A stretch of 43,948 nucleotides of DNA. It comes from Lachnospiraceae bacterium (lineage in GTDB: Bacteria; Bacillota; Clostridia; Lachnospirales; Lachnospiraceae). Positions within the stretch are counted from its first letter, which is position 1. Each line of letters begins with the position of its first letter. Below are positions 6,424-37,726 of the stretch, piece after piece. The stretch is taken from contig JAKSRY010000019.1 of NCBI GenBank assembly GCA_024403415.1, positions 1-43,948 on the forward strand. Direction: 5' to 3'. The notes under the pieces are model-generated. The model was not told the DNA's origin and did not search any database. It was given only the letters and a program-made list of their open reading frames with translations. The translations under genes were made by a program, and so were the position numbers.

Positions 6424-6609
6424 GGTAATTCTCCGTTTATCTATTTTAGAATATAGTTAATTTATCTTTAACACTATACCATATTTTATGGCTGTTTATG
6501 AAGCTAAAATATTGTTTAGATGTTATAAGTTATGTTAAAATTTGTAGAACGAGAACATGCCTTTTTGTTATTATCAGAGCTGTTGAAAGACGGCGAAATG
6601 AGGATTTTT

Positions 6610-15917: not shown

Positions 15918-16973
15918 ATGAATACATCTATTTCAATCCCCGCGTTACTTAAAATCGAAAAAGGAGCCTTAAGTGAAATAGGCTCCTTTCTTAAAAGTAA
16001 CAATTTAAATAAAGCCGTTGTGTTTTTTGGAAACGGACTTATTGATTTGTTCGGAATGAAGGTTTTAAGTTCGCTCGAAGAAAATTCCATAGAAGTATTA
16101 AGTTATATGGAGTTGGATACAGTCAATATTGAGGATATCACAGATATTGCATTTAATTTACCAAATCAGACGCAGGTAGTTATAGGTATAGGCGGCGGTA
16201 AAGTTATTGATGCAGCAAAATATACCGGATTTCTTAAAAAGATTCCGTATATCAGTGCACCTACTGCTACATCCAATGATGGTTTTTCGAGCGCAACAGC
16301 TTCATTGCTTATCAGAGGAAAAAGGCAGTCGGTTCCTGCAAAAATGGCCTTTGGAATAGTTGCTGATATTGATGCCATAAAGAGTGCGCCAAGGGGATTT
16401 TTATATTCCGGAATCGGAGATATGATTTGCAAAATTACAGCTATTTATGACTGGCAGTTTGAAGCATCAAAGGGCTATAGTCAGATTAATGATGTAGCTG
16501 TTATGATAGCAAAAAAAGCAGTTAACAGTCTGGTAAGAACACCCTATACAGATATTACAGATGATGTTTTTTTGAAAGAGTTATTAAATTCACTTGCCAT
16601 GTGCGGTATAGCTAATGAAATTGCAGGAAGTTCGCTGCCGACAAGCGGAAGCGAGCATTTGATAAGCCATGCAATAGATCAAAAGGCTGAAAAACCGCAG
16701 CAGCATGGAATCCAGGTTGGTATAGCAACTTATATAATGTGTCTAGTTCAGGAACACAGGGTTGAAAGAATAAGGAATTTCCTTACGGACACCGGATTTT
16801 TTGATTATGTTGCTACACTTAATCTTGATGTCAACGATTATCTGAATGCTATTGAATATGCTCCAAACATTAAACCCTTCAGACATACATATCTTCATGA
16901 AGAAGAATATCGAATGAAGGCTAAGAGATTCATCGTGGAAGATGAGATACTAAAAAAGATATTCCATGAATAA
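15918..16973 (+). CDS. sn-glycerol-1-phosphate dehydrogenase (AraM/EgsA family)
   Basis: The 351-aa protein belongs to the iron-alcohol-dehydrogenase-like G1PDH family. It reduces dihydroxyacetone phosphate to sn-glycerol-1-phosphate with NAD(P)H, the archaeal lipid backbone, and is known in bacteria as AraM of Bacillus. Visible signs are the nucleotide-binding GIGGGKVIDAAKY, APTATSNDGFSS, and the metal ligands Asp in YSGIGDMICK, His in TSGSEHLISHAID and His in QQHGIQVGIAT. All three ligands are present, so it should be active. GTGGAG precedes ATG. A terminator separates it from the acyl-transfer genes, so it may be a neighbour rather than a member of that operon. Confidence 0.9.
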   Translation: MNTSISIPALLKIEKGALSEIGSFLKSNNLNKAVVFFGNGLIDLFGMKVLSSLEENSIEVLSYMELDTVNIEDITDIAFNLPNQTQVVIGIGGGKVIDAAKYTGFLKKIPYISAPTATSNDGFSSATASLLIRGKRQSVPAKMAFGIVADIDAIKSAPRGFLYSGIGDMICKITAIYDWQFEASKGYSQINDVAVMIAKKAVNSLVRTPYTDITDDVFLKELLNSLAMCGIANEIAGSSLPTSGSEHLISHAIDQKAEKPQQHGIQVGIATYIMCLVQEHRVERIRNFLTDTGFFDYVATLNLDVNDYLNAIEYAPNIKPFRHTYLHEEEYRMKAKRFIVEDEILKKIFHE

Positions 16974-17004
16974 GAAAATATATTGTTTATCTATATTACA
17001 AAGG

Positions 17005-17036
17005 TGTGCCCGTATTTACTTACGGGCACATTTTTT
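17005..17036 (+). terminator. Rho-independent terminator
   Basis: TGTGCCCGTA and TACGGGCACA form a 10-bp GC-rich stem with a 6-nt loop, followed by TTTTTT. It ends the G1PDH transcript. Confidence 0.93.
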
Positions 17037-17279
17037 ATGTTATGGCAATAAAATCACTGAAAATACCAAAAAGGGGAGTTCTATATGGCACAAATATGGT
17101 AAAGAAATGTCCAATTGTATAGAGAGTTTAACAGGACATTGAACCCCCCTCTGATATTGACAGAATATGTGGTTTTGTGTCAAAATATCTTCTGTATGTG
17201 TCTGCGAATTTGAATAAAAACTGAGCTAAAAAGTACACATATTTTTATATTATTTTATTTTGTCTTGGAGCATGGATTT
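17037..17279 (+). other. Gene-free leader before the acyl-transfer operon
   Basis: No gene or convincing promoter was found. TTGACA at 17157 has only a poor -10 at the right distance (TCAAAA); TTGACA and TGTCAA 15 nt apart form an inverted pair. The last ~60 nt are T-rich. Confidence 0.4.
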
Positions 17280-19226
17280 ATGAGCATTTCTGGAATTGGT
17301 GATGCTAAAAGCATAAATGAATTTGTTGAGAAAAAGATTAAAGGTCTCAGCGAAAAAGAAAGATCTTTTGCAACACTTTTTGAGTTCATGTTTTCTGAAA
17401 AAGAAAATGTTATTTACGAAAGAAGTAAAGGCTACAGAATCGAAAAAACAACATATAAAGAAGCATATGAGAAGGTCTTCTTTATAGCTGACAGCATTGA
17501 AAAGGCATTGGAAAATGTCGAAAAGGGAAGTGTGGTCGGCCTATATATGGAAAACAGCCTCGAATGGATTGAAGTCTTCTGGGCAATACTTATGGCAGGA
17601 TACAGACCATTGCTTTTGAATCTTCGTATGCCGCATGAAATGCTGTCATCAGTGGTTACTGAGGTTGGAGTTAATGCAGTAATAACATCGGGAAACGAAA
17701 TTGTTTTTGATAATAGTAAAAGTATAGATATATTAAGCATACTTGACGAAAATGATTTGGCTAAAATCAAGGATAGTGGTTCAAAGAACCATATCTTTGC
17801 CGAAGAAATTATGTTTATGTCTTCAGGAACCTCTTCTAACGTCAAGGTATGTGCATATTCTGCTGAAGAACTGTTTTACCAGATTACAGACAGTTTTAAT
17901 ATTATTAAAAAGTGTTCATTGATGAAAAAACACTATAAGAACAGTCTTAAACAGCTTACTTTTTTACCTTTCTATCATGTGTTTGGATTTATAGCCGTAT
18001 ATTTATGGTTCGGTTTCTTTTCAAGGACCTTCATTCATCTTGAAAATATGGCACCGGAAACTCTGCTTAATACAATAAGACGTCATGAGGTGACTCATAT
18101 ATTTGCCGTGCCGCTCTTTTGGGAAACAGTATATGATCAGGCCATAAGAACGATTAAAGAGCGTGGAGAAAAAACATATAAAAAGTTTCTGAAAGGAATG
18201 AAGATATCACGAGCATTGTCTTCATGCAGAATTCTTTCAAAGCTTTTTTCAAAGGTTGCATTTAAGGAAATCAGACAGAATCTGTTTGGTGACAGTATAA
18301 GTTTCATGATTACCGGTGGAAGTGAAATATCCGGTGATGCAATAGAATTCTTTAATGCTATTGGATATCGTCTTGCAGACGGATATGGAATGACAGAGAT
18401 TGGCATTACCTCTGTAGAATTAACTGCCAACAGGCAATATCTTACCGGCTGCAGTATAGGAGAACCTTTCTCTTCAATCGAATATAAAATAGATGAAAAC
18501 GGAGAACTTCTTGTTCGCGGAAAGAGTACAGCAAAGTATATTCTTGAAAACGGTAAAAAGATAGATAAACCGGAATGGTTTAACACACATGATCTGGTCA
18601 AAGCACATAAGGGTGGTTATAAGATACTTGGTCGTAAGGATGATCTTGTTATTTCAAATAATGGTGAAAATATGAATCCTAATCTCATCGAACCATTATT
18701 TGATGTTCCAACATGTCTGATAAAGAGTAACAATAAACCTGTTCTGCTTGTAAGCCTTAAAGGTTATGTTACAAAAGAACGTTTTCAGACGGTGTCTGAT
18801 AAGATTTCAGAGAAGTTGAAAGAAACTGGGATGGCGGCCGCTATTGGTAAGCCTGTATTTATCAGGGATGCCTTTATTAAGGGTGATGAATTTAAGAAAA
18901 ATCGAAGCAGAATCGCAAAAGATTACGCTGAGGGAAATTTAAGTATAATAGAACTTTCAAAGATAGAGAGCAGCGAAGACGAAAATGAGATTACAAGAAA
19001 TATAAGGCTTATTTTTGCAGTTGCACTCAAAAAGGATGTAGAAGAAATTGGAAGCAGGGACGATTTCTTCCTTGATCTTGGAGGAAGCAGTCTTGATTAT
19101 TTTGGTATGATAACTGAAATGAATTCAGAGTTTAATCTTACCATTCCTGTTGGTCAGAGCATGGAATTAAGTACTGTTGAGAGCCTTAGTAAATTTATTG
19201 AGGAAGAAATTGGGCATGTGGATTAG
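17280..19226 (+). CDS. Acyl-AMP ligase fused to an acyl carrier protein domain
   Basis: About 648 aa. Residues 1-560 are an ANL-superfamily adenylating enzyme: SSGTSSNVK at 181-189 is the ATP loop, DGYGMTEIG is motif A5, THDLV and LGRKDDLVISNNGEN follow, and KKNRSRIAKDY carries the C-terminal lysine. Residues 575-648 are a carrier domain with LGGSSLDYF, S604 being the predicted phosphopantetheine site. It should activate a carboxylic acid, most likely a fatty acid, and load it onto its own carrier; the acid is not known. No ketosynthase or condensation domain is near, which argues against polyketide or peptide assembly. GGAG lies 9 nt before ATG17280; a TTG at 17265 is less likely. It overlaps the next gene by 11 nt. 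Confidence 0.88.
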   Translation: MSISGIGDAKSINEFVEKKIKGLSEKERSFATLFEFMFSEKENVIYERSKGYRIEKTTYKEAYEKVFFIADSIEKALENVEKGSVVGLYMENSLEWIEVFWAILMAGYRPLLLNLRMPHEMLSSVVTEVGVNAVITSGNEIVFDNSKSIDILSILDENDLAKIKDSGSKNHIFAEEIMFMSSGTSSNVKVCAYSAEELFYQITDSFNIIKKCSLMKKHYKNSLKQLTFLPFYHVFGFIAVYLWFGFFSRTFIHLENMAPETLLNTIRRHEVTHIFAVPLFWETVYDQAIRTIKERGEKTYKKFLKGMKISRALSSCRILSKLFSKVAFKEIRQNLFGDSISFMITGGSEISGDAIEFFNAIGYRLADGYGMTEIGITSVELTANRQYLTGCSIGEPFSSIEYKIDENGELLVRGKSTAKYILENGKKIDKPEWFNTHDLVKAHKGGYKILGRKDDLVISNNGENMNPNLIEPLFDVPTCLIKSNNKPVLLVSLKGYVTKERFQTVSDKISEKLKETGMAAAIGKPVFIRDAFIKGDEFKKNRSRIAKDYAEGNLSIIELSKIESSEDENEITRNIRLIFAVALKKDVEEIGSRDDFFLDLGGSSLDYFGMITEMNSEFNLTIPVGQSMELSTVESLSKFIEEEIGHVD

Positions 19227-19875
19227 TTTTTGGAACTGGTTTGTAAAAATAACCGGATGGCCGGTTCAAAAGATATGCTTCAGAACCAAAATCTACTATG
19301 AAGATAAGTCAGTTCAGAGCCGTAAGATAAAAGGACCTGCTATCATCATTTCAAATCATACTTCGGTTTTTGATTATGCGGTATGGCTGTTTGTCTTTTG
19401 GGGAAGAACATTACGATTTCAAATGGCGGAACTTCTGTTTAAGAAGAAGGGATTGGGAATTCTGTTAAGAATGCTCGGCGGGATTTATGTAAACCGAAAT
19501 GCACATGATTTCAGCTTTATTACAAAATCTGAAAATATAATAAAAAAAGGTGGAGTGGTAGGAGTATTTCCGGAAGCAAGAATACCTCTTCCGGATGAAG
19601 AAAGGCCATTGGAATTTAAGCCGAGTGCGGCATATCTTACAATACTTTCCGGAGTGCCTGTGATTCCTGTTGTTACAGACGGTTCTTATTTTAATAAAAA
19701 GCATGCAAATGTCATTATTGGAAAACCGATAGACATATATGAAATAACAGACAGCGATTTGTCAGATAAAGAGAATATCGAAAAGGTCAATGAAGTTTTA
19801 AGAAATAGGATTATTGAACTGGAGTCATTCTTAAATGAAAAAAAGTCAGGATGTGACAAAAAAGAAAAAAACTAA
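19216..19875 (+). CDS. PlsC-type 1-acyl-glycerol-phosphate acyltransferase (first of two)
   Basis: About 219 aa of the lysophosphatidic acid acyltransferase superfamily. The catalytic HX4D is NHTSVFD (H48, D53). The acceptor-binding motif is FPEARIP, where most relatives have FPEGTR, so the acceptor may not be ordinary lysophosphatidate. IYVNR and IPVVTDG are further conserved blocks. A hydrophobic N-terminus (WISFWNWFVKITGW) suits membrane association. ATG19216 lies inside the end of the ligase gene, with GAGGAAG 9 nt upstream; this coupling suggests it takes acyl groups from the fused carrier. The next acyltransferase gene overlaps its end by 41 nt. Confidence 0.85.
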   Translation: MWISFWNWFVKITGWPVQKICFRTKIYYEDKSVQSRKIKGPAIIISNHTSVFDYAVWLFVFWGRTLRFQMAELLFKKKGLGILLRMLGGIYVNRNAHDFSFITKSENIIKKGGVVGVFPEARIPLPDEERPLEFKPSAAYLTILSGVPVIPVVTDGSYFNKKHANVIIGKPIDIYEITDSDLSDKENIEKVNEVLRNRIIELESFLNEKKSGCDKKEKN

Positions 19876-20491
19876 TTATCTGTTCTATGATTTTGTAAAG
19901 GTTACTGCCGCTATTCCGGGACTTATATGGTTAAGACCTAAAAACTATTACGAAAATGAAGCGGCAAAAAAGAAAATAAAAGGTGGAGCGCTTATAATAG
20001 CAAATCACAATGGTTTTCTGGATCCTATTTTTCTTCAGTATGTTATATGGTACAGAAGGCATCATTTTGTCTGCGGAATAGAATTTATGCAGGGTAAGGG
20101 GGCCTGGTTTTTTAAGGGAGTGCAGTGTATCCCGGTAGACAGAAGCAATTTTACAATGGATACCTATCGCAGAATTACCGATGCAATGAGTGAAGGAAAG
20201 CTTGTAACAATGTTCCCGGAAGGGCATATCAACTCTACCGGAGGCAAAGAAATGGATTCCTTCAAACCCGGAATGATTATGATGGCACTGAAGGGTGGGC
20301 ATCCAATTATTCCTGTGTATATGAAGGAGAGAAAACATTTTTGGAGCAGACTTAAAGTTGTGGTGGGAGAACCTATTGATATTGTTAAAATGTATGGGGA
20401 TAAGCCAACCTTTGCACAAATAAATGAAATGACGAAGCTGTTGCAGGAAAAAGAAGAGCAGCTTAAACAGATTATGATATCTTTGTCATAA
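19835..20491 (+). CDS. PlsC-type acyltransferase (second of two)
   Basis: 218 aa, with HX4D as NHNGFLD (H58, D63) and acceptor motif FPEGHIN. CIPVDRSN and IIPVYM are the other conserved blocks. The N-terminus is lysine-rich, then hydrophobic. It differs clearly from the preceding acyltransferase, so the pair probably acts on different positions or acceptors, as PlsY/PlsC do in normal phospholipid synthesis (inference). GGAG lies 11 nt before ATG19835, inside the previous gene. An AMP-ligase gene follows within 75 nt. Confidence 0.88.
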   Translation: MKKSQDVTKKKKTNYLFYDFVKVTAAIPGLIWLRPKNYYENEAAKKKIKGGALIIANHNGFLDPIFLQYVIWYRRHHFVCGIEFMQGKGAWFFKGVQCIPVDRSNFTMDTYRRITDAMSEGKLVTMFPEGHINSTGGKEMDSFKPGMIMMALKGGHPIIPVYMKERKHFWSRLKVVVGEPIDIVKMYGDKPTFAQINEMTKLLQEKEEQLKQIMISLS

Positions 20492-20562
20492 ATATATGAT
20501 AAGTGACCGAAAAAAGTAAGTTAATATTTCAAAAAAATGAAAAGGAGTTTTTGATTGGCAAA

Positions 20563-22077
20563 ATGAATATTATTGAGGTAAATACAGCTGATAAATATAA
20601 AAAATATACAGACGAAGAGACTTTTAACAAAATAGTTGAGTATCCATCGATAAGCAGTATGTGGCAGAACTGCCTGAAAGAGTACTCTGATCTTGCTGCT
20701 ATAGAGGATAATGGCAGTTCCTATACTTATAAGGATATTGAAAAATCTGCTGCAAAGATGAGAGCCAAAATTCTTGATATTACCAAAGGCGAAAAAAGAA
20801 GAATAGCTATTTTGGCTCCAAATTCATATTCTTTTGTGGCCGGTTTCATTGCAATAGTTACAACAGGATGTGCGGCAATTATTTTACCTGCTCATCTGGA
20901 TGAAAGAAGTGTATTCGGATGCTGTATGAAGTATGGAGCAGCAGCGCTTTTATTTGCAAAGGAGAGCGAGGAAAAAACTTCAATTGCAGCTTCAAAAATA
21001 CAGACAGTACTTATAAGTGAAGAGTATGAAGCAGAAGCAGAGGCTGTTGAGGTTAATCCTGAGGATGAATGTGTTCTCATGTTCACAAGCGGTACTACAG
21101 GAAAGAGTAAGGCAGCTATATTAAATAACAGAGCAGTTATGCTTGGAACTGTTAACGGATGTTATGGATATAAGGATGTATTTAATCAAAGATATATTCT
21201 GGTACTTCCCCTAAGTCATGTATTCGGACTGATTCGAAATCTTATGACAAGTTTATATACCGGAAGTGATTTGCTTATTTGTCGTGATAATAAAAATATG
21301 TTTAGGGATATAGCTGTGTTTAAGCCGACAATACTTGTGGCGGTTCCAGCACTTGTTGAAATGTCACTTACCCTTTCAAGGCAGTTTAATAAAAATATGC
21401 TGGGTGCTGATATGAAGACCATAATATGTGGTGCTGCAGCAGTTGCTCCATATCTTATTAAGGAATATGACAAATACGGAATAAGGGTATGTCCGGGTTA
21501 CGGTCTTACGGAGTCAGCCAATCTGGTGTCAGGAAATCCTGAAGGACTGACAAAGAGTGAATCGGTTGGTATACCTTATCCGCATCAGAAGTTTCAGATT
21601 GTTGATGGTGAACTTTGGATAAAGGGAGACAATATGATGAACGGATATGCAGACGATGATGCGGAAAATCCTTACGAGGATGGATGGTTCAAAACAGGTG
21701 ACCTTGTAAGATTTGATGAAGACGGATTCCTCTATATTACAGGTCGCTGCAAAGAGATTATCGTTTTGTCAAATGGTGAAAATGTTTCTCCGCAGGAATT
21801 GGAAGCTGCATTTAACAGACTTCCGTTTATTCAGGATTCACAGGTTTATGAGGATGTTCTGGAATCGGGAGAGCACATTCTTGCACTTGAGGTTGTTCCA
21901 AGAAAAGCAGAGCTTAAAGATATACCTTCTGATGAACAGGAAGCTTTTATTATAGAGGAACTGAAAAAAGTTAATCGTGAAGCGCTTCCATATCAGAGAG
22001 TCAGTCGAATAATAGTCAGAGACAGTGACTTTGAACGTTCACCAAGTATGAAGATTGTGAGATATAAGAAATGTTAA
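20563..22077 (+). CDS. Acyl-AMP ligase / acyl-ACP synthetase (stand-alone)
   Basis: About 504 aa of the ANL superfamily. Motifs: MFTSGTTGKSKAA (ATP loop), LPLSHVFGLIR, PGYGLTESANL, FKTGDLVRFDEDGFLYITGR, LSNGENVSPQELE, and the C-terminal ERSPSMKIVR with the catalytic lysine. It lacks a fused carrier, but the next gene is a small ACP overlapping it by 7 nt, so I infer that it loads that ACP with a fatty or other organic acid. The start is uncertain: AAAGGAG lies 15 nt before ATG20563, and an in-frame GTG at 20503 would add 20 residues without a better ribosome binding site. Confidence 0.87.
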   Translation: MNIIEVNTADKYKKYTDEETFNKIVEYPSISSMWQNCLKEYSDLAAIEDNGSSYTYKDIEKSAAKMRAKILDITKGEKRRIAILAPNSYSFVAGFIAIVTTGCAAIILPAHLDERSVFGCCMKYGAAALLFAKESEEKTSIAASKIQTVLISEEYEAEAEAVEVNPEDECVLMFTSGTTGKSKAAILNNRAVMLGTVNGCYGYKDVFNQRYILVLPLSHVFGLIRNLMTSLYTGSDLLICRDNKNMFRDIAVFKPTILVAVPALVEMSLTLSRQFNKNMLGADMKTIICGAAAVAPYLIKEYDKYGIRVCPGYGLTESANLVSGNPEGLTKSESVGIPYPHQKFQIVDGELWIKGDNMMNGYADDDAENPYEDGWFKTGDLVRFDEDGFLYITGRCKEIIVLSNGENVSPQELEAAFNRLPFIQDSQVYEDVLESGEHILALEVVPRKAELKDIPSDEQEAFIIEELKKVNREALPYQRVSRIIVRDSDFERSPSMKIVRYKKC

Positions 22078-22325
22078 GCAGAAATGAAATAATGGACAAA
22101 TTGCGTGATATACTGCTTTTTGCCGATGAAGAGAATAAAGAGGAAATTGCCAAAGCAGATGAAAATACGGATCTTGCGACAGAGCTTGGTCTGACTTCAG
22201 TTAAGATGCTTTATATGGTTATTGCAATTGAGGAAACCTTTGATATAAGGTTTGAGAATGTTGGATTTAATGATTTTAAGATAATGAAGGACATAGTAGA
22301 TTATATCGAAACAAATCTTAAATAA
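22071..22325 (+). CDS. Acyl carrier protein (stand-alone)
   Basis: 84 aa, acidic and helical. TELGLTSVKMLYMVIAIEE is the helix II region, with S43 as the predicted phosphopantetheine attachment (LGLTS in place of the common LGxDS). Residues IRFENVGFNDFKIMKDIVDYIE fit helices III and IV. It overlaps the end of the stand-alone ligase gene, so the two form a ligase-carrier pair. It differs from a housekeeping AcpP (no DSL). It is the second carrier in this locus. Confidence 0.85.
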   Translation: MLSRNEIMDKLRDILLFADEENKEEIAKADENTDLATELGLTSVKMLYMVIAIEETFDIRFENVGFNDFKIMKDIVDYIETNLK

Positions 22326-22351
22326 GTCTGGATTTATGAGGAGTATCGGTT

Positions 22352-22774
22352 ATGAAATGGTGGCCCGGAGAATGCCGGATGGGTGATATGATTCGCATCA
22401 ACCTTGGCACTGTTTGGCATTATGGAATATTTGTAAGTGAAGATGAAATTATTCAGTTTGGTCTGCCCCCGGTACAGGAGTATAAACTGCCGGATTCGGA
22501 AGTCAGAGTCTGCGTTTCGAATATTGATATTTTTTCCTGTGGAAAGATAGTCGAGGTGGGAACACCTGAAAAATCCGAAAAGCGAAAGAAGAACAGCCCG
22601 GAAAAAGTGGTTGAACTTGCAAGAGCCAGAATAGGTGAAGGTGGTTACAGTCTTGTTCATAATAATTGTGAACACTTTGCGAATGAGTGTTATTTCGGAA
22701 TTCACAGAAGCGTTCTTCAGGAAGATGCAATGAACAGATGGAAAGCATTCCTGGCCAAAAAGGGAGAAAAATAG
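22352..22774 (+). CDS. LRAT-like (NlpC/P60-superfamily) acyltransferase or thiol hydrolase
   Basis: 140 aa. Residues 8-60 carry GDMIRINLGTVWHYGIFV with H23, and residues 104-109 are NNCEHF with C106, the hallmark of the LRAT/HRASLS family, in which this Cys takes an acyl group from a phospholipid and passes it to an acceptor or to water. The second active-site His of the animal enzymes is not obvious. No signal peptide or membrane segment is seen. GAGGAG precedes ATG. Its place between an ACP and an alpha/beta hydrolase in a chain of acyl-handling genes supports a lipid role; the acceptor is unknown. Confidence 0.85.
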   Translation: MKWWPGECRMGDMIRINLGTVWHYGIFVSEDEIIQFGLPPVQEYKLPDSEVRVCVSNIDIFSCGKIVEVGTPEKSEKRKKNSPEKVVELARARIGEGGYSLVHNNCEHFANECYFGIHRSVLQEDAMNRWKAFLAKKGEK

Positions 22775-22775
22775 T

Positions 22776-23714
22776 ATGAATACAATACATATAGTATTAA
22801 TCATTATTGTAGGAATACTGATAGTCTTTTGGGTTGCACCGGCTATAAGCATGTATATAGCTGTTTTTTGCAGAAAAGGACATAAAGCAAACAAAGGTGT
22901 TGATCCGGAAAAAGAATATTTTGAAGGATATGAGACAGAATATAGAAGTGCAGTTCAAAAGCTTGAGGGTCTTTATAAGGAACAGATTGAGATAACCTCT
23001 TTTGATGGAAAAAAACTATACGGATATTACTGTTATTCAAAAGAAAAAAATGAAAAATCAGACAAAGCGGCAATATTATTTCATGGATTTCGAACAAATC
23101 CATTTCTGAACCTGGCCCCAATGGCAAAAGTACTCCTGGAAATGGGGTATGACATTGTTATTCCTTACGCAAGAGGGCATGTGCCAAGTGAAGGAAGATC
23201 AACAGTCGGATTGCTTGAGCAGGAGGATGTACTTGCCTGGACTGATTTTGTAAAAAAGAAATATTTACCTTCAAAGTTTATTTTGGGAGGAATCTCAATG
23301 GGAGGATCATCTGTAGGATATGCCTCTGACAGACTTGAAGGAGTTAATGCGATAATAATTGATTGTGCTTTTGTTTCTCCATATAATCAGATGGTTAAGG
23401 AAACAAGACAGCGTCATATGCCGGGGGAAATGCTTATCCCGATAATGAGGTTATGTGGCAAAATGCACATTAAAAAGGATATTAAGGCAGCTGTCACGGA
23501 TAGTCTTTCAAAAACAGATATACCGGCATTTTTTATTCATGGAAATAAGGATGCGACAGTGCCGGTTTCCGAAGGAATTAAAAATTATGAAGCATGTGCT
23601 TCAAAAAAAGAGATGCTTCTCGTTGAAGGAGCAAAGCATACGGCAGGACTTATCTGGTCCAAAGATGAGGGTGTGTCAAGACTGAAAAAATTCATTCTTG
23701 AATGTGAAAGGTAA
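22776..23714 (+). CDS. Membrane-anchored alpha/beta hydrolase (Ser nucleophile)
   Basis: 312 aa. Residues 5-30 are a membrane helix (IVLIIIVGILIVFWVAPAI). The hydrolase domain has LFHGFRTNP (oxyanion loop), YARGHVPSEGRST, and the nucleophile elbow GISMGGS with S174. IHGNKDATVP supplies the acid Asp and GAKHTAG the His. It resembles the BAAT/FrsA-like or YqiK-like hydrolases seen in Clostridia; the substrate could be a lipid ester or acyl thioester. The start lies 1 nt after the LRAT-like gene's stop, so they are co-translated. Confidence 0.85.
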   Translation: MNTIHIVLIIIVGILIVFWVAPAISMYIAVFCRKGHKANKGVDPEKEYFEGYETEYRSAVQKLEGLYKEQIEITSFDGKKLYGYYCYSKEKNEKSDKAAILFHGFRTNPFLNLAPMAKVLLEMGYDIVIPYARGHVPSEGRSTVGLLEQEDVLAWTDFVKKKYLPSKFILGGISMGGSSVGYASDRLEGVNAIIIDCAFVSPYNQMVKETRQRHMPGEMLIPIMRLCGKMHIKKDIKAAVTDSLSKTDIPAFFIHGNKDATVPVSEGIKNYEACASKKEMLLVEGAKHTAGLIWSKDEGVSRLKKFILECER

Positions 23715-23736
23715 ATAAAAAATAGGAGATAGAAAA

Positions 23737-24672
23737 ATGAAAAAATTCGTTATTATTGCTGATTCGAACTGTGATCTTGAAGAAGAACTTCAGAAGCAGT
23801 ACGACATTGAAGTTATCCCCGGACATGCTGTGTTACCGGATAATACCGAGGTACTTACATATCCTAAATGGGACGTATTTACTCAGGAAGATTTCTATGC
23901 TGCACTTAAGAAGAATCCTGATGGATTCAAGACAGCACCATCAAATGTTGCCGAGTTTCTTGAAGCATTTGAGAAGGCAGCCAAAGAAGGCTGTGATGTG
24001 CTTTGCATAACTATTTCTACCGCTTTGAGCGGAACCTGTAATTTTGCCCGTCAGGCAGCGACTCAGGCAGAAAAGAATTATCCCGGAACTGTTGTTAAGG
24101 TTGTTGATTCAAGTCGTTTTGGCCCGGGCTTTGGACTTATGGTTGTGCATGCATCACTTCAGCGTGAGAGTGGCAAATCATTGGAAGAAACAGTTGAATG
24201 GCTTGAGGACAACAAGAACCGTTTCCATCAGGGTGGATGGCTTGATGATCTTTCATTTGTAGCAAAGAAAGGCCGTATGACTAATGCCAAGGCTTTCTTT
24301 GGAACACTTGTAGGTATAAAGCCTATTGGAGAATTCGATAAAAATGGTATGACTACAGTTATTGGTAAGATTAAAGGAGCCAAGAAAGGATACTCAGTTG
24401 TTCTTTCTTATATCAAGGAGACTATCGATAATCCTGAGGAGCAGACTATTTTTATAGCACAGAGTAATCGTATGGCTCAGGCAGAAAAATTCAAGGAGCT
24501 TATTGAGGCAGAGATTCATCCAAAGGAAGTTATTATTAAGGATGTGCATATGTCATGCGGTATCAATGTTGGACCCGGACTTATGGCTGCTTACTACATG
24601 GGTAAGCCAATTTCAGATGACCTTGAGACAGAAAGAGCACTTATAGAAAAATTTGATGCGGAGACTAAATAA
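23737..24672 (+). CDS. DegV-family fatty-acid-binding protein (FakB-like)
   Basis: 311 aa. DegV/FakB proteins hold a fatty acid for phosphorylation by FakA. Seen here: VIIADSNCDL at the N-terminus, FKTAPSNVAEF (Thr of the T-x-P/S motif), ITISTALSGTCNFA (carboxylate-binding Ser region), FVAKKGRMTNAKAFFGTLVGIKPI. The C-terminal GxHxGPG motif, whose His is conserved in most FakBs, reads CGINVGPG, with Asn replacing His. That may change ligand or kinase interaction. The FakA gene lies 1.4 kb downstream after one transporter gene. AGGAGAT precedes ATG. The stop overlaps the transporter start by 1 nt. Confidence 0.9.
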   Translation: MKKFVIIADSNCDLEEELQKQYDIEVIPGHAVLPDNTEVLTYPKWDVFTQEDFYAALKKNPDGFKTAPSNVAEFLEAFEKAAKEGCDVLCITISTALSGTCNFARQAATQAEKNYPGTVVKVVDSSRFGPGFGLMVVHASLQRESGKSLEETVEWLEDNKNRFHQGGWLDDLSFVAKKGRMTNAKAFFGTLVGIKPIGEFDKNGMTTVIGKIKGAKKGYSVVLSYIKETIDNPEEQTIFIAQSNRMAQAEKFKELIEAEIHPKEVIIKDVHMSCGINVGPGLMAAYYMGKPISDDLETERALIEKFDAETK

Positions 24673-26036
24673 TGCGTAAATTAGATAAAACATGGAAAAA
24701 ACTTCTTTATGCACTCGCCGGAATGGGTGTAAATATGCTCAATCTTATGATGAATTCATATCTTTGCAGCGCACTGCTTATTGGTGGATTTGGCGAAGAA
24801 GCGATAAAGAATCAGACTTTTGCAGGAGTTGATCTTATAGTACCGGCTGTTTGGACAGTATTTGCATTTATTTCCAAGATAATCGATGGAATTATAGATA
24901 TCCCTATGGCTTCGCTTACAGATAATCTTAAGTCAAAATGGGGAAGAAGACGTCCGGCTTTGGTAATGGGATTTATTCCAATGATAGCAGCTTATGTGTT
25001 GTTCCTTTGTGTACCGAATTCGGGAGCAGCAACAGTACTTAACACCGTTTATTTCGGAGTTCTTCTCTGCATCTTCTATATTGGCTACACGCTTACCATG
25101 GTTACATATTATGCAACCTTCACTGAAATAGTTGATAATGCAAAGGACAGAGCTTTCATTTCGAACTCAAAAGCATTTTTCGATATTGTTTATTATATTT
25201 TAGGTTATGTAGTTGTTAGTGGAATGCTTAAGTCAACAAACATTAAGACAGTTGCGCTTATCGTTTTGCCAATGAGTTTAACAATGCTTATTGCCTTCTT
25301 TATGATTAAGGAAAAATCAACCAAAGATGGAGTTGAAGGTGAAAAATCCGAAACAGTTAATCTTGTAAAGTCTATTACATTTACACTGAAGAACAGACCT
25401 TTTGTATTATGGATGGTTATCTATTCAGTTATGACAGTAGGTGTGCAGCTGTTTCTTGGCGGAATTAATGAATACTTCTCATACGTCGATATGAATATGA
25501 TGTTTGTTATGATGGGGGCATTTGCTCCGGTTCCGTTCACATTGATTCTTTATAATCGCATGATGAAAAAACGTGGTTTTGGAGTTGCTTTTAGGGTGTC
25601 ACTGATAATATATGCACTTGGAATGATATCAATGTTTGCAGCAGGTATTATTTTTGACAAGGGTTCCGTTAAAACTATTATTTCGGTTATTACAGGTGTC
25701 ATCAGTTCATTTGCAATTGGTTCACTGTTTTCAGTTGCGTATTTTGTTCCGTCGCAGCTTGCTGCAGAAGAGGAACAAAAGACAGGTATTAAGTCTTCAG
25801 CGATGTATTTTGCAGTACAGGGTTTGTTTGCAGGAATTGCATCGGGACTTGCCACCGGAGTTATTTTAACATTGTTAAAGACCTTTACTGATAAAGAGGC
25901 AGACAAAGCAGCTGCAGTTAACTCAGGACCTATGGCTTATATGACACTTATTGCCGGAGTGTTTGTGCTTATTGCAGCATTACTTATGCCGAAGTTGCCA
26001 CAGTCAATAAAAGACATAGGAAAAGAAGCTAAGTAG
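24672..26036 (+). CDS. MFS_2/GPH-type transporter
   Basis: 454 aa with about 12 membrane helices. SKIIDGIIDIPMASLTDNLK and SKWGRRRPALVMG form the conserved cytoplasmic loop of the glycoside-pentoside-hexuronide family (MelB-like), which also includes the animal lysophosphatidylcholine carrier MFSD2A. Bacterial members usually carry sugars with sodium. Here it is coupled to a FakB-like gene by a 1-nt overlap in an acyl-handling operon, so a lysolipid or lipid-precursor substrate is worth testing; that is inference from context only. A terminator follows. Confidence 0.85.
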   Translation: MRKLDKTWKKLLYALAGMGVNMLNLMMNSYLCSALLIGGFGEEAIKNQTFAGVDLIVPAVWTVFAFISKIIDGIIDIPMASLTDNLKSKWGRRRPALVMGFIPMIAAYVLFLCVPNSGAATVLNTVYFGVLLCIFYIGYTLTMVTYYATFTEIVDNAKDRAFISNSKAFFDIVYYILGYVVVSGMLKSTNIKTVALIVLPMSLTMLIAFFMIKEKSTKDGVEGEKSETVNLVKSITFTLKNRPFVLWMVIYSVMTVGVQLFLGGINEYFSYVDMNMMFVMMGAFAPVPFTLILYNRMMKKRGFGVAFRVSLIIYALGMISMFAAGIIFDKGSVKTIISVITGVISSFAIGSLFSVAYFVPSQLAAEEEQKTGIKSSAMYFAVQGLFAGIASGLATGVILTLLKTFTDKEADKAAAVNSGPMAYMTLIAGVFVLIAALLMPKLPQSIKDIGKEAK

Positions 26037-26062
26037 TATTATGCTATATGAATAATATGTAA

Positions 26063-26093
26063 AACGAGTAGGACATCTTGCCTACTCGTTTTT
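26063..26093 (+). terminator. Rho-independent terminator
   Basis: AACGAGTAGG pairs with CCTACTCGTT around an 8-nt loop and is followed by TTT. It separates the acyl operon from fakA. Confidence 0.85.
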
Positions 26094-26125
26094 AAAGCAA
26101 ATATTTTTGTAAAGGAAGTTTTCAT

Positions 26126-27781
26126 ATGAAAACAAAGAGAATAGACGGTAATTTACTGGAAAAAATGTTGAAAAACGGTCTTGCAAACTTAAAGACCCAT
26201 GAACAAGAACTGAATGACCTGAATGTATTTCCTGTACCGGATGGTGACACAGGTACTAATATGCTTCTGACCTTGGGAAATGGTCTTAAAAATACTCCAA
26301 GCTCTTACGAATGCGGTAAATTTCTTGTTGATTTAAGTAATGCCATGCTCCTTTCTGCAAGAGGTAATTCCGGGGTCATTCTGTCACAGATTTTTACGGG
26401 TTTTGCAATGGAAGTTGGAAGATGTCCGTTATTGGGTCCCGGAGAACTGAGAAATGCTCTCATACGTGGATATCGTAATGCCTATGCAGTTACAATACAG
26501 CCTGTAGAAGGCACTATTCTCACAGTATGCAGAGAAGGTATTGAACACATTAAAACAATGATAACAAGAAATTCTTCTGCAGAAGATATTTTGTCAATGT
26601 ATCTTGGTGAAATGAGGAAGAGCCTTACTTTTACCCCTGATATTCTTGAGGTACTTAAGGATGCCGGTGTGGTAGACAGCGGAGCTCTTGGTTATATCTA
26701 TATATTTGAAGGAATGCTTAAATACCTCTATAATGATATGCTTCCGGATGATTATGTGGAAGTGCTGGAAACAATTACACCAGCAGCAAATGCCGATTTA
26801 AGTCTGTTCAATGAGTATAGTATTTTTGAAGACGGTTACTGTATGGAATTCATCCTCCAACTGATGAAAAATAATAAGTATAATCAGCATTTTAATTTAA
26901 AAAGATATATTGAGGATCTGAAGTTATATGGAAATTCTCTTGTTGTTGTACAAAACGGCCAAAGAGTCAAGGTTCATGTTCATACACAAAAACCTGCAAA
27001 GGTAATTAACCTGAGTCAGGAATTCGGCGAGTTCCTGACATTTAAGCTCGAAAATATGCAGGTGCAGCATAATGAGAGAACAGAGAGAATTGAAAAGAAT
27101 ATTACAAGAAACGAGGTTGCAATCATTTCTGTTTCCAATGGAGATGGAATGACAAAACTGTTCAAGCAGTTAGGTTCCAATTTTGTAATTGAAAGCAGTC
27201 AGAATGCAGGAGTAGCTTCCGAAGAATTTTTAAGATATTATGACAGATGTAATGCAGATACAGTAATTGTATTCCCTAATGATAATAATCTGATTCCTGC
27301 TGCAGAGCAGGCAGCTAAGCTTTTTCAGGATCCAAATTCAAGGATTCTTGTTATGCCGACCAAAACCGTTGCAGAAGGATATTTTGCTCTTGCCATGGAC
27401 CTTCGTGATGAAAAGGATGTTGAACGAAGAATCGAACTTATGAAGAACGGAATGGAGAATGTTGCGACTCTTTATGAGGTTACAGCCGTAAAAGACTATT
27501 CCGGTGAATTGGTTACTGTCAGTGCCGGGGAGGAGACCGCCATAATTAATAAGACCCCGGTATGTAAGGGACAGGATAAATGTTCAACTTTAATGGAAGG
27601 TTTAGCTCAAATAGAAGATATCGATGATTATGAAATTGCAGTTATATTTAAGGGTGAAAATGTTACTGATGAAGAACAGGAAACGCTTGAGAGCATGATT
27701 GAGGAACAATATCCATTGCTGGAGGCAACATTTATACAGGGTGATCAGAAAAAATATAATTTTGTTGTCGGATTAAGTTAA
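26126..27781 (+). CDS. fakA: Fatty acid kinase FakA (DAK2/DhaL domain)
   Basis: 551 aa, the usual FakA length. The N-terminal DhaL-type kinase domain has LNVFPVPDGDTGTNM, D39 and D41 being magnesium ligands, plus LLSARGNSGVILSQIF and DAGVVDSGALGY. The middle domain has DGYCMEFIL and GNSLVVVQNGQRVKVHVHT, the conserved Cys and His regions. The C-terminal domain is DegV-like. FakA phosphorylates a fatty acid held by FakB, giving acyl-phosphate for PlsY or PlsX. Two DegV proteins are in the window (23.7 and 42.4 kb). AAAGGAAG lies 10 nt before ATG. Confidence 0.93.
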   Translation: MKTKRIDGNLLEKMLKNGLANLKTHEQELNDLNVFPVPDGDTGTNMLLTLGNGLKNTPSSYECGKFLVDLSNAMLLSARGNSGVILSQIFTGFAMEVGRCPLLGPGELRNALIRGYRNAYAVTIQPVEGTILTVCREGIEHIKTMITRNSSAEDILSMYLGEMRKSLTFTPDILEVLKDAGVVDSGALGYIYIFEGMLKYLYNDMLPDDYVEVLETITPAANADLSLFNEYSIFEDGYCMEFILQLMKNNKYNQHFNLKRYIEDLKLYGNSLVVVQNGQRVKVHVHTQKPAKVINLSQEFGEFLTFKLENMQVQHNERTERIEKNITRNEVAIISVSNGDGMTKLFKQLGSNFVIESSQNAGVASEEFLRYYDRCNADTVIVFPNDNNLIPAAEQAAKLFQDPNSRILVMPTKTVAEGYFALAMDLRDEKDVERRIELMKNGMENVATLYEVTAVKDYSGELVTVSAGEETAIINKTPVCKGQDKCSTLMEGLAQIEDIDDYEIAVIFKGENVTDEEQETLESMIEEQYPLLEATFIQGDQKKYNFVVGLS

Positions 27782-27861
27782 AGCATTGTATATCAGTTTA
27801 TTACAGATATTTATTTGGTGTATTTGTATTAGGTTTTAGTGCATACAGAAAGGATAGATAA

Positions 27862-28812
27862 GTGAGTACAGCATGTTTGATTTGCCTGATTATATTCGGG
27901 CTCATAATGTTTTTTGGGATATTGCCTACATTTATCATGTCATATTTTTTATATCGTGAGTTGTTTGTCCGTAAGAATCCAAATGAAAGAGTCAGACACT
28001 GCAGTTTCCCGGATGATGAGGAATATGTGAAGATGTATTCTGAAGGTCTTGATTGGGGCAAAGAGAATGAGAGCGCAAAGGAAGCAGTTGAAATAGAAAG
28101 CGAAGGCGCACATCTTTTTGGCGAGTATTTTGATTTCGGATTTAAGAAGGCAGTGATAATAATTCCGGGAAGAACAGAAGACTGTACATATTCTTATTAT
28201 TTTTCAGAACCTTACAAGAAGGCAGGATGTAACGTTTTATGTATTGATAATCGTGCCCACGGCTTATCTGACGGTACCTGTCATAATCTTGGTGCTACGG
28301 AGTATAAAGATATACTTAAGTGGTCACAGCTGCTTCATGATAAATATGGTAATGAGACAGTAATTCTTCATGGTATTTGCATCGGCGCCCAGGTTGCAAT
28401 GAAGCTTATGACAAATGAGATATGTCCTTCATATATTAAGGCTATGGTAACAGAGGGTATGTTTACAACCTTTAGGGATTCTTTTGATGAACACATGAGA
28501 GAAGGACATCATCCGATTTTTCCATTTACTTTGTGGGTAATGTTATGGATCAGAATTCGTTCACATGCAAATGTGTTGACTGAGGGGCCGGTTAAATGGA
28601 TAGGCTCTCTTGATAAGCCGATACTTATGCTTCACAGCAGACAGGATAAATATTCAACACCCAAACAGGGAGAAATTCTAAATAACCTTTGCAAGGCTCC
28701 TAAGAAGATGGTATGGTTTGATGAAGGAGAACACTCGAGAATCCGACCACGAAATACGGAGGCTTTTGACAAAGAGATAGAAGAGTTTGTAAAAAATCTT
28801 GCAATTGACTAA
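27862..28812 (+). CDS. Membrane-anchored alpha/beta hydrolase with a Cys nucleophile
   Basis: 316 aa with an N-terminal membrane helix (CLICLIIFGLIMFFGILPTF). The hydrolase fold shows IIIPGRTEDC, CIDNRAHGLSDG and a nucleophile elbow LHGICIGAQ, so the position normally held by Ser is C173. HSRQDKY and EGEHSR supply the usual Asp and His. A Cys nucleophile is known in dienelactone hydrolases but is uncommon in this group. Start is GTG27862 with AAAGGA 7 nt upstream. It follows fakA by 80 nt and is similar in layout to the Ser-type hydrolase at 22.8 kb, suggesting a related lipid or thioester substrate (inference). Confidence 0.82.
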   Translation: MSTACLICLIIFGLIMFFGILPTFIMSYFLYRELFVRKNPNERVRHCSFPDDEEYVKMYSEGLDWGKENESAKEAVEIESEGAHLFGEYFDFGFKKAVIIIPGRTEDCTYSYYFSEPYKKAGCNVLCIDNRAHGLSDGTCHNLGATEYKDILKWSQLLHDKYGNETVILHGICIGAQVAMKLMTNEICPSYIKAMVTEGMFTTFRDSFDEHMREGHHPIFPFTLWVMLWIRIRSHANVLTEGPVKWIGSLDKPILMLHSRQDKYSTPKQGEILNNLCKAPKKMVWFDEGEHSRIRPRNTEAFDKEIEEFVKNLAID

Positions 28813-31544: not shown

Positions 31545-31582
31545 GTATTTTTAAGAACCAATACTATTTTATGGAGGTTGTT

Positions 31583-34024
31583 ATGGGACTTTTAGCTTAC
31601 GAAAAAGAGAATTTGACAAAAGTAAGAAAGATGGCACCTGAATGTACACTCTTTCTTAAAAGGAATTGTGATTTTCCTATAGATGAACCATGTAAAGTTG
31701 CCTTGTTTGGTAATGGAGCAAGAAAAACCATAAGGGGTGGTACCGGCTCCGGTGAAGTAAATTCCAGATTTGCCATTAATGCTGAACAGGGACTTGAACA
31801 GGAAGGATTTACAATAACAACCAGGAACTGGATAGATGCTTTTGATGATATTCATGAAAAGGCAGAGGAAGCTTTCTATGATGAGATTAAGCGTAAAGCA
31901 AAAGAAAATCATACTTTTGCGGTTATGGAATCAATGGGAAAGATTATGCCACAGCCCGAATACAGTCTTTCAACTGATTACGAAGGAGATATTGCAGTTT
32001 ATGTTCTCTCGAGAATCTCAGGAGAAGGAAGTGACAGAGAGTTTAAGAAGGGCGATATCTTATTAACAGACACTGAAGTAAGAGATATCCTTGCAATAAA
32101 TAAGAAGTTCGATAAATTTATGCTCGTGCTCAATGTTGGTGGTCCGGTTGACTTATCCCCTGTTATGGAGGTTGAGAATATACTTTTATTATCCCAGCTT
32201 GGCGTGGTGACAGGTAAAACACTTGCAAGAATTATTCTTGGAAAAGACGTGCCTTCAGGAAAACTCACGACCACCTGGGCAAAGGAAGAAGACTATTGCA
32301 AAAAGGGAACCTTCGGGGATAAGAATGATACCTATTACAAAGAAGGAATATATGTAGGTTACAGATATTTTAATACAGTAGACAAGAAAGCTGTTTTCCC
32401 GTTTGGCTATGGTCTTGGGTTTACAGATTTTGAAGTGAACCCCATAGATATTTCCATGGTGAATACAACGGTTACTGTTAAGGCTGAGGTTAAAAATACC
32501 GGCAAATATAAAGGAAAAGAAGTAGTACAGGTTTATGTATCCGTGCCGGATGGAGAACTTGACCAGCCATATCAGTCACTTGCAGCATTTAAGAAAACTC
32601 CCGTACTTAACAGTGGTGATACGGCAGTTTTATCAATATCCTTTGATATTAGTGATATTGCAGGATATGATTCAAAGAAAGCAGCGTATGTGCTTGAAAG
32701 CGGAGCGTACGTTGTAAGAGTAGGAAACAGCTCAGAAAGTACAAAGGTTGCAGGTGTGATAGATATTGAGGAATCAGCCGTGATCAGGAAGGTTAAGAAC
32801 TGTCTCGGTGAATTCGGATTTGAGGACTGGGTACCTGAAAATAAAAAGGCAGTCGAGATTCCTGTAGGAAGCAAACATATCACATTTGACGGAAGAATAA
32901 TTAAGACAGAAGAGACTGATTATGAAAGAGAGTATGAGAAAGATTCATATATTTCTTCATTAAGTAATAAAGAACTTGCAAAGCTGTGCGTTGGTGCATA
33001 TAAAGAGCATGGAATAGCCAATACCATCGGAGATGCATCAATGAAGGTTGCAGGTGCAGCGGGACAGACTTCAACACCAAAGAAGAATGGTAATTTCCCA
33101 TATCTTGTAATGGCAGATGGTCCTGCGGGAATTCGTATCTGTAAACAGTATTATATTGATAAGGATGGAAATGAACATCCCGTTGGCGTTATGATGATGG
33201 ACAGCCTTTTGAGACTTATGCCAAAGATAGGAGTAGCTTTTCTAAAACTTAGAGCAAAGCGTCCACCGAAGTCAGCCATTAAATTCCATTATGCAACAGC
33301 AATTCCCATTGGTGTTGCACTTGCTCAAAGCTTCAATGTTATGCTGGCAAAAGAGTGCGGTAATATTGTCGGAGGTGAAATGGAAAGATTTGGAATACAC
33401 CTGTGGCTTGCACCGGCACTTAATATTCACAGAGACATAAGATGCGGAAGAAACTTTGAATATTTTTCAGAGGATCCGCTTGTTAGCGGTTTGTTTGCAG
33501 CGGCAATTACCGAGGGTGTGCAGGCACATCCGGGATGCGGCACTACCATTAAGCATTATGCTGCAAATAATCAGGAAACAAACAGATACAACAGTAACAG
33601 TCATGTAAGTGAAAGAGCGATGAGAGAAATTTATCTTAAGGGCTTCGAAATCTGTGTTAAAAAATCACAGCCACTGACTCTCATGACATCTTATAATCTT
33701 TTAAATGGTGAACATACCAGTGAAAGCAGAGCACTTATTGAAGATATCTTAAGAAGTGAATTTGGATTTAAGGGTGTTGTAATGACTGACTGGGTTGTTA
33801 TGGGTGGAACCATAGATAAGTCATCAATGTACAGAGCTCCTAAGGCTGGTCTTGTTGTAAAAGCAGGTGGTGACCTGTTTATGCCGGGCTGTGAGGAGGA
33901 TGTTGAAAGCATTCTTGAACACTTAAAGAGTGGTGAAATCACAAGAGAGCAGTTAATTATCAACGGAACCAGAATCTATCGTTTGGCAAAAGAATGTAAT
34001 GAAAAACAAATATTAAGATTCTAG
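31583..34024 (+). CDS. GH3 beta-glucosidase with circularly permuted domain order
   Basis: About 813 aa. Ordinary GH3 enzymes run (beta/alpha)8 barrel, alpha/beta sandwich, fibronectin-like domain. Here the sandwich comes first (residues 1-285: RGGTGSGEVN, VLSRISGEGSDR, GKLTTTWA, FPFGYGLGFTDF). The Fn3-like domain follows (about 290-395: VEVKNTG-type strands, GKEVVQVYVSVPDG), then the barrel (about 445-813: VMADGPAGIRI, GRNFEYFSEDP, TTIKHYAANNQETNR, and MTDW with nucleophile D736). Permuted GH3s are known from rumen Butyrivibrio and Ruminococcus. No signal peptide, so it is probably cytoplasmic. GGAGG lies 5 nt before ATG31583. Confidence 0.92.
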   Translation: MGLLAYEKENLTKVRKMAPECTLFLKRNCDFPIDEPCKVALFGNGARKTIRGGTGSGEVNSRFAINAEQGLEQEGFTITTRNWIDAFDDIHEKAEEAFYDEIKRKAKENHTFAVMESMGKIMPQPEYSLSTDYEGDIAVYVLSRISGEGSDREFKKGDILLTDTEVRDILAINKKFDKFMLVLNVGGPVDLSPVMEVENILLLSQLGVVTGKTLARIILGKDVPSGKLTTTWAKEEDYCKKGTFGDKNDTYYKEGIYVGYRYFNTVDKKAVFPFGYGLGFTDFEVNPIDISMVNTTVTVKAEVKNTGKYKGKEVVQVYVSVPDGELDQPYQSLAAFKKTPVLNSGDTAVLSISFDISDIAGYDSKKAAYVLESGAYVVRVGNSSESTKVAGVIDIEESAVIRKVKNCLGEFGFEDWVPENKKAVEIPVGSKHITFDGRIIKTEETDYEREYEKDSYISSLSNKELAKLCVGAYKEHGIANTIGDASMKVAGAAGQTSTPKKNGNFPYLVMADGPAGIRICKQYYIDKDGNEHPVGVMMMDSLLRLMPKIGVAFLKLRAKRPPKSAIKFHYATAIPIGVALAQSFNVMLAKECGNIVGGEMERFGIHLWLAPALNIHRDIRCGRNFEYFSEDPLVSGLFAAAITEGVQAHPGCGTTIKHYAANNQETNRYNSNSHVSERAMREIYLKGFEICVKKSQPLTLMTSYNLLNGEHTSESRALIEDILRSEFGFKGVVMTDWVVMGGTIDKSSMYRAPKAGLVVKAGGDLFMPGCEEDVESILEHLKSGEITREQLIINGTRIYRLAKECNEKQILRF

Positions 34025-34147
34025 GAACTTTATTATATAGTGGAATATTGATAGATTCAGGATTTCAGCCTTTGTAGTTATCTACACTTATTTTTAATGT
34101 TGAGTCATATTATCAATTGACTGTATATTGCTTGGATGGAGATTATT

Positions 34148-37151: not shown

Positions 37152-37726
37152 TTTTACTTATAGACAATTACGATAGTTTCTCATATAACGTATACCAGCT
37201 TATAGGTTCAGTAGAGCCTGATATTAAGGTTGTAAGAAATGATGAAGTATCACTGGAAGATATTGAAAAAATGAATCCCGATGCCATCATTCTTTCACCG
37301 GGGCCCGGAAAACCGTCAGAGGCCGGAATATGTATGGATGCAGTCAAGTACTTTGCAGGTAAGAAGCCTATTTTGGGAATATGTCTCGGACATCAAGCAA
37401 TCTGTGAAGCTTTTGGAGCTACAGTAAGCTATGCGAAGGAACTTATGCACGGAAAGCAGAAGGAAATCGAAAAGGTAGGTGAAAGTGCTCTGTTTAAGAA
37501 TATGGAGCAAAGATTCACAGCAGCAAGATATCATTCTCTTGCAGCAATTGAAGAGACAATGCCTGAAATATTAAAGGTAACTGCGCGATGTGAAGATGGC
37601 GAGATAATGGCAGTTGAGCATCGTGATTACAAAATATATGGGTTACAGTTTCATCCGGAATCAGTTATGACACCTGATGGAAAGACAATTATAGAGAATT
37701 TTATGGAGGTTATTAAAAATGATTAA
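37148..37726 (+). CDS. trpG: Anthranilate synthase component II (glutamine amidotransferase)
   Basis: 192 aa class I amidotransferase that supplies ammonia to TrpE. The catalytic triad is Cys in LGICLGHQA and His/Glu in [21 protein letters not shown] is the conserved oxyanion segment. GGAGGGA lies 6 nt before ATG. Stand-alone rather than fused to TrpD. It overlaps trpE and, by 8 nt, trpD. Confidence 0.97.

Follow-up and report, generated by a model that had tools for sequence, protein, structure and literature searches.

The window analysed here is a whole contig of 43,948 nucleotides (JAKSRY010000019.1, our C11) from a Lachnospiraceae bacterium (GCA_024403415.1), whose genome is 2.7 Mb long and 87% complete. 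Between a terminator-like stem and the end of the gene we call ABH2 (17000-28812), eleven genes lie on the same (+) strand, several of them overlapping: LigACP, PlsC1, PlsC2, Lig2, ACP, LRAT, ABH1, FakB, MFS_2, FakA and ABH2, in that order. This operon is real, conserved and coherent: ligase, acyl carrier protein (ACP), PlsC-type acyltransferase and the fatty acid kinase pair FakAB form a unit that is conserved across families of Clostridia and patchily spread among them. An original prediction, made from the DNA alone, had placed here two AMP-ligases, ACPs, two PlsC-type acyltransferases, an LRAT-like protein, two hydrolases, FakB, an MFS_2 transporter and FakA, and had likened the set to FakAB plus a dissected Aas-LplT of Escherichia coli (an acyl-ACP synthetase/2-acyl-glycerophosphoethanolamine acyltransferase and a lysophospholipid transporter). 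Pfam and model scores bear out every gene in that list.

Gene content of the operon

LigACP (17265-19226) is an adenylate-forming ligase (AMP-binding, 139.9 bits) with a C-terminal ACP domain (PP-binding, 41 bits); its likelier start is the ATG at 17280, with a GGAG at 17267-17270 upstream. Its homologues keep YGxTE or YGxSE (motif A5), the A7 aspartate, the A10 lysine and the ACP serine. A dead ligase was considered and rejected, as the A10 lysine is present, one alignment column off (FKxxR). Lig2 (20503-22077), a free-standing relative of acyl-CoA/acyl-ACP ligases (AMP-binding, 181.7 bits; AMP-binding_C_3), is followed by the free ACP (22071-22325), which scores 21.4 bits against PP-binding (cut-off 20.8) and falls below the NCBIfam ACP cut-offs. 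Both carriers, fused and free, therefore have a PP-binding domain above cut-off with its attachment serine, and that serine is kept in all 15 free ACPs.

The two acyltransferases belong to the LPLAT family. PlsC1 (19177-19875, likelier start ATG 19216) matches PF01553 at 67.5 bits and carries NHX4D and FPEARIP, and PlsC2 (19835-20491) matches it at 79.7 bits and carries NHX4D and FPEGHI. NHX4D is found in every PlsC1 and PlsC2 row of our alignment, and FPEGTR, present in E. coli PlsC and in the window genome's own C1 copy, is found in none. In the tree, the PlsC2 rows form one group (support 99/97), and PlsC1 forms another with the N-terminal halves of the PlsC1-PlsC2 fusions of family f45 (97/91); support is weak (90/58) for a joint PlsC1/PlsC2 clade that excludes Aas and housekeeping PlsC.

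FakB (23737-24672) is a DegV-family protein that scores 209.6 bits against TIGR00762 (cut-off 99.7) and 109 bits against the specific FakB1 model, below the cut-off of 350. FakA (26126-27781), the catalytic subunit of fatty acid kinase, has three Pfam domains above cut-off (Dak2, 106.5 bits; FakA-like_M; FakA-like_C, 139 bits), so the predicted FakAB system holds at family level. Between them lies the GPH-type transporter MFS_2 (24672-26036; 112.1 bits), which has no relative among solved structures.

The LRAT/PLAAT-like cysteine enzyme (22352-22774; LRAT domain, 62.2 bits) keeps His23 and Cys106, the cysteine of NCEHF, in all seven homologues, and the nearest solved structures to its profile are PLAAT proteins (group XVI phospholipase A). 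It is fused to a phosphopantetheinyl transferase, by Pfam, in two other loci (L011:6135-7187 and L058:3835-4848), and in a third (L010:8865-9692) to a likely remnant of one, seen by BLAST and alignment only. These fusions tie LRAT to carrier proteins. We know of no earlier example of this domain pairing. The operon also encodes two membrane-anchored proteins of the alpha/beta hydrolase fold: ABH1 (22776-23714), with a serine nucleophile, and ABH2 (27862-28812), which has an N-terminal helix and a cysteine at the nucleophile position. In ABH2, the cysteine followed by xG is kept, with Asp and His, in 15/15 homologues, and the full GxCxG in 13/15. A single-sequence AlphaFold2 model of ABH2 was useless beyond the N-terminal helix, its mean predicted local distance difference test score being 40.

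Recurrence across Clostridia and operon boundaries

We read 23 LigACP loci: that of the window, L010, four from a scan of the family, twelve from a scan of the class and five from a scan of family f54. A sister locus without LigACP (L058) was read in addition, making 24 loci in some counts. The LigACP loci come from six families of Clostridia (f1, f54, f45, f18, f72 and f21) and one genome without a family label.

PlsC1, alone or as a PlsC1-PlsC2 fusion, lies directly 3' of LigACP in 21 of the 23 loci. One miss is L010, where an MFS_2 gene intervenes, and the other is L033, where the contig ends inside LigACP (this locus was left out of the LigACP tree, which has 22 rows). Both FakA and FakB lie within the LigACP stretch (at most 20 kb) in 18/23 loci, including L039, where the pair is about 7 kb from LigACP and FakB is cut at the stretch end. 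In four of the misses (L010, L012, L033 and L069) the locus runs to a contig edge; in the fifth, L014, the pair is truly absent from the stretch. By our own arithmetic, which assumes five FakA genes per genome, the chance of finding FakA in a 20-kb stretch is about 4%. ABH2 occurs in at least 15/24 loci, and LRAT and MFS_2 in at least 7/24 each, all lower bounds because some loci are cut by contig ends; an ABH1-like gene on the opposite strand in L012 was not assigned to the operon. These synteny counts place the gene arrangement beyond chance, and an arrangement private to one strain, which the original prediction had named as the outcome that would speak against it, is ruled out.

Four architectures can be told apart. 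The first, that of the window, is LigACP-PlsC1-PlsC2-Lig2-ACP-(LRAT)-ABH1-FakB-(MFS_2)-FakA-ABH2; six genomes of the distant genus g457 share its order minus LRAT and MFS_2 (L032, L067, L070 and L071 are complete, L068 and L069 cut by contig ends), and L011 is of this type without Lig2. The second has PlsX-FakA-FakB beside or near LigACP-PlsC1-PlsC2-ACP-(LRAT) (L013, L034, L036, L038 and L039); its PlsX was identified by genome search in all five loci and by model also in L013, L034 and L036. The third is minimal, FakB-FakA-MFS_2-LigACP-PlsC1-ABH2 (L035, L037 and L040). The fourth, found in f45 (L041-L043), is GT2-esterase-LigACP-PlsC1::PlsC2-FakB-ABH2-FakA, its upstream GT2 and esterase genes having been typed in L041 only. 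The f45 loci end with a xylose-isomerase-like TIM barrel fused to an AMP-ligase (L041:842-3367, L042:16161-18686 and L043:533-3058). L014 has only LigACP-PlsC1-PlsC2-ACP. The genome G510 has a minimal locus and, on a second contig (L058), MFS_2-PlsC1-PlsC2-Lig2-ACP-LRAT::PPTase, where PPTase is the phosphopantetheinyl transferase; the window's operon looks like these two modules joined into one.

The scans of family, class, phylum and order capped the candidates scored in each genome at three or four, so their counts, which include the window's own genome, are lower bounds. LigACP relatives were found in at least 5/299 genomes of the family (E 1e-60; 298 genera sampled), at least 13/391 of the class (E 1e-45) and at least 2/398 of the phylum (E 1e-55), the second of the latter (G986) being from another class. 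In family f54, seven of nine genomes have one (E 1e-75). The order scan for Lig2 at E 1e-100 gave at least 1/392, which is the window itself, yet G187, of the same family, carries Lig2. A contig scan of genomes gave one LigACP relative (L010), and in a plasmid collection only distant Fusobacteriota proteins matched. Excluded from the loci were two second matches with no ACP domain and no cluster neighbours (G632:C31 and G549:C31:35055), G374:C1 (a hit only) and the G986 locus (L060, 709 aa), which was read within 4.3 kb only.

In the LigACP tree, well-supported branches force two or three changes each of f1, f54, f45 and f18, and the module has therefore moved between families. Pairwise identities of the other genes correlate with those of LigACP (Spearman 0.78 for FakA, 0.74 for PlsC1, 0.70 for ABH2 and 0.56 for FakB; no unlinked control gene was included).

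The interval originally predicted, 15918-28812, proved right for the operon, at 17265-28812, and too wide at its 5' end, where the first gene (15918-16973) is a separate dehydrogenase that had been left unnamed. We treat it as a separate unit because a terminator-like stem-loop (17000-17035, +; 15 pairs, then a T-rich tail) and a weak promoter-like site (17157-17186, +; TTGACA, 18 nt, CAAAAT) lie between it and LigACP, the stem marking the end of the dehydrogenase unit. Promoter-like sites occurred at chance level in our scan (61 found, 58.1 expected). The gene scores 218 bits against the glycerol-1-phosphate dehydrogenase model (cut-off 413), and its nearest solved chain is PDB 3ce9, 'Glycerol dehydrogenase' (381 bits); no match to it lies beside LigACP in the other loci read. 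We therefore rejected a glycerol-1-phosphate dehydrogenase, and with it archaeal-type lipid stereochemistry, as part of the system. A further stem (26061-26092), between MFS_2 and FakA, may attenuate transcription.

Further along the window are a GH3 enzyme with permuted domain order, its C-terminal domain and Fn3 preceding the N-terminal domain (31571-34024), a tocopherol-cyclase match barely above cut-off (34136-35266; 29.6 vs 26.6 bits) and trp operon genes (trpE to trpA), then another DegV/FakB-like gene at 42434-43315 (35661-43315 in all).

Candidate functions

We lean, by a modest degree, towards reading the operon as a fatty-acid scavenging and acyl-transfer system that would feed membrane glycerolipids via two activated forms of fatty acid. 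The LRAT/PLAAT-like protein and the anchored hydrolases would release acyl chains from lipids, and lipid or lysolipid would be imported by MFS_2 in the loci that have it. FakB would pass free fatty acid to FakA, giving acyl-phosphate, a donor for PlsY (encoded elsewhere in the window genome) at the first glycerol position. LigACP would adenylate free fatty acid and load its own ACP domain, from which PlsC1 would take the acyl group, and Lig2 would load the free ACP, whose acyl-ACP PlsC2 would use. In favour of this reading we count the synteny of LigACP with PlsC1 and FakAB, the gene order kept in g457, the undetected FabH in f54, the gene content of G510 described below, the Lig2/PlsX exclusion, the retained LigACP motifs and ACP serine, the LRAT-PPTase fusions and the correlated pairwise identities.

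Where Lig2 is missing and PlsX lies near FakA, acyl-ACP would instead come from acyl-phosphate. Among the 15 loci with a free ACP, Lig2 is found in eight, PlsX in five, both in none and neither in two (L011 and L014), an exclusion with a naive one-sided Fisher p of about 0.007 (our own arithmetic). The pattern suggests that the same ACP is loaded either by Lig2 or by FakAB-PlsX.

Several observations weigh against this scavenging reading or parts of it. The Lig2 and PlsX states track two clades in the tree of LigACP, and four Lig2 loci lie near contig ends, so there is little independent evidence for the exclusion. The P-loop of LigACP has diverged, reading SGTSSNVK in the window and TSAT in L013, L014, L034, L036 and L038. 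The window genome has an operon for type II fatty acid synthesis (FASII; fabK, fabD, fabG, fabF, fabZ, accDA and fabH), PlsX on C4 and, side by side on C7 (L057:5105-8484), PlsY, a second FakA (35% identical) and FakB; the cluster is therefore not needed for membranes there, and the operon in this genome is a supplement to FASII. Two other PF01553 proteins are also encoded in the genome. Ketosynthase went undetected in 8/18 cluster genomes and in 6/15 controls, which is no enrichment. Finally, three genomes of genus g354 (G494, G382 and G355; 98-99% complete) have ketosynthases and FakAB in the cluster, and neither PlsX nor PlsY was found in them, so their FakAB product lacks a known user and the FakAB-PlsY step cannot explain them.

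We also considered the cluster as a replacement for FASII, which is unsupported overall by the ketosynthase counts and has support only lineage-wise, in f54. FabH was undetected in all nine genomes of that family, which includes g457; LigACP is present in seven of them, and the remaining two are 76% and 69% complete. In G510 (92% complete), ketosynthase, FabH and PlsX were not detected, and PlsY and a PlsC beside housekeeping genes are present; acyl-ACP there must therefore be made by LigACP, by Lig2 or by some ligase that went unseen. An association of MFS_2 with FASII loss, seen in five of six genomes with MFS_2 in the LigACP locus, faded after g457, in which both MFS_2 and FASII are missing, was added.

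The alternative that survives best is lysophospholipid salvage, a functional counterpart of Aas-LplT in which MFS_2 would import lysolipids, LRAT and the hydrolases would produce them, LigACP or Lig2 would re-acylate them with PlsC1 or PlsC2, and FakAB would only handle released fatty acid. Consistent with this, PlsC2 scores higher against the acyltransferase portion of Aas (43 bits) than against the PlsC of E. coli (25 bits), and Lig2 matches the ligase portion of Aas at 107 bits. Neither acyltransferase has FPEGTR, and among solved proteins the LRAT profile comes closest to PLAAT phospholipases. On the other side, only 7/24 loci show MFS_2 and only 7/24 show LRAT, while FakAB is near-constant, and MFS_2 is not an LplT relative. 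We consider salvage unlikely as the operon's main role.

A pathway to a small-molecule or envelope conjugate is, in our judgement, quite unlikely. Here the ligase and ACP would charge a fatty acid, and PlsC1, PlsC2, LRAT or ABH2 would transfer it to an amine, a sugar or some other special acceptor. OaaA-OaaACP, as outlined in PMC13142362, likewise relies on a ligase with a free ACP; LRAT and ABH2, the latter with its cysteine, might act as acyltransferases, and in f45 the loci also encode a GT2 glycosyltransferase and an esterase. Set against this, no condensation domain or other amide-forming enzyme was found among the 37 window open reading frames scanned, both acyltransferases are of the LPLAT family, and FakAB belongs to the unit. 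The same Pfam scan found no ketosynthase, in keeping with the original prediction.

For the PlsX/PlsY-free lineages (G494, G382 and G355), we entertain as a long shot that FakAB, LigACP and the fused PlsC1-PlsC2 make up a glycerolipid acylation pathway of their own, with acyl-phosphate taken directly by LigACP or the PlsC enzymes. If true, acyl-phosphate would be used outside PlsX and PlsY. Separately, G355 encodes a protein of 886 aa in which a weak match to PlsC follows an apparent membrane part; its gene adjoins another PlsC-like gene and one for a 622-aa AMP-ligase (L054:2139-4799, 5118-7915).

Lastly, a chance neighbourhood of unrelated lipid genes, which the presence of LigACP in only one of six genomes of the window's genus (its own included) might suggest, is refuted by synteny, since this set of genes is found together again at 22 further loci from several families, and its probability is negligible.

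If the scavenging reading is right, it would account for the ability of some gut bacteria to build membranes out of fat that they scavenge. An operon holding both activations, a carrier built into a ligase and two acyltransferase groups would offer a testable membrane route for FASII-free bacteria that use diet or host lipids, and such a route would matter for how FASII inhibitors are used. The operon also gives a context for the fusion of LRAT to a phosphopantetheinyl transferase and for a conserved protein that has the alpha/beta hydrolase fold and a cysteine as its nucleophile.

Comparison with known systems

Gram-positive bacteria generally activate outside fatty acids as acyl-phosphate via FakAB, according to the summary in PMC10146087, and acyl-ACP synthetases such as Aas and AasS are known from Gram-negatives (compare PMC11271967). 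A near counterpart in Firmicutes is FakAB with PlsX, PlsY and an auxiliary ACP, as sketched for Enterococcus faecalis (PMC12594616; PMC6509188). The operon shares FakA and FakB with it, and five loci have PlsX beside or near plus a free ACP; unlike that system, the operon also holds an ATP-dependent ligase route to acyl-ACP.

Two systems resemble the operon in pairing a dedicated ligase with its own ACP. In rhodobacterial sphingolipid synthesis, the acyl-ACP synthetase AasR and its carrier AcpR direct free fatty acids into one lipid class (PMC9386255); the acyl user there is a serine palmitoyltransferase, and none was found in our operon scans. In the OaaA-OaaACP-OaaC fatty acid amide pathway of gut Clostridia, an adenylating enzyme charges a free-standing ACP with a fatty acid (PMC13142362). 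That pathway has a condensation domain where the operon has PlsC-family acyltransferases, and the window scan found no free-standing condensation domain.

AMP-ligase/ACP/PlsC fusions of Ilyobacter and Fusobacterium have the domain order of LigACP plus PlsC1; Pfam finds ligase, ACP and PlsC in two Ilyobacter proteins, and does not report the ACP of the Fusobacterium protein. They differ in being 24-28% identical in the matched parts, in acyltransferase domains far from PlsC1 and PlsC2, and in having no FakAB annotated in the stretches read. We found no description of the operon's gene combination in the open-access literature, judged by title and the start of the abstract.

Aas-LplT shares with the operon the ligase, ACP and PlsC-family logic and, in some loci, an MFS-clan transporter. 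The predicted likeness stands for Lig2 and PlsC2 and is distant for LigACP, which matches Aas at 27.7 bits. Aas joins a PlsC-type acyltransferase and an AMP-ligase in one polypeptide, whereas the window has separate genes, two ligase-acyltransferase sets and an ACP covalently attached to one ligase; against the curated Aas models, the best matches stay well below the cut-offs, with PlsC2 for example at 64.9 bits (cut-off 1221) and Lig2 at 106.8 bits (cut-off 1349). The predicted LplT-like transporter fails by sequence relationship: MFS_2 belongs to the MFS_2 family rather than MFS_1, its best pairwise match to LplT is 22.3 bits (E 0.024, a single comparison), and it was not seen in 17/24 loci, some of them cut. 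The operon also has FakAB. Judged by these sequence relationships, it is not Aas-LplT, and it is reasonable to suppose that its ligase, ACP and PlsC proteins work like Aas.

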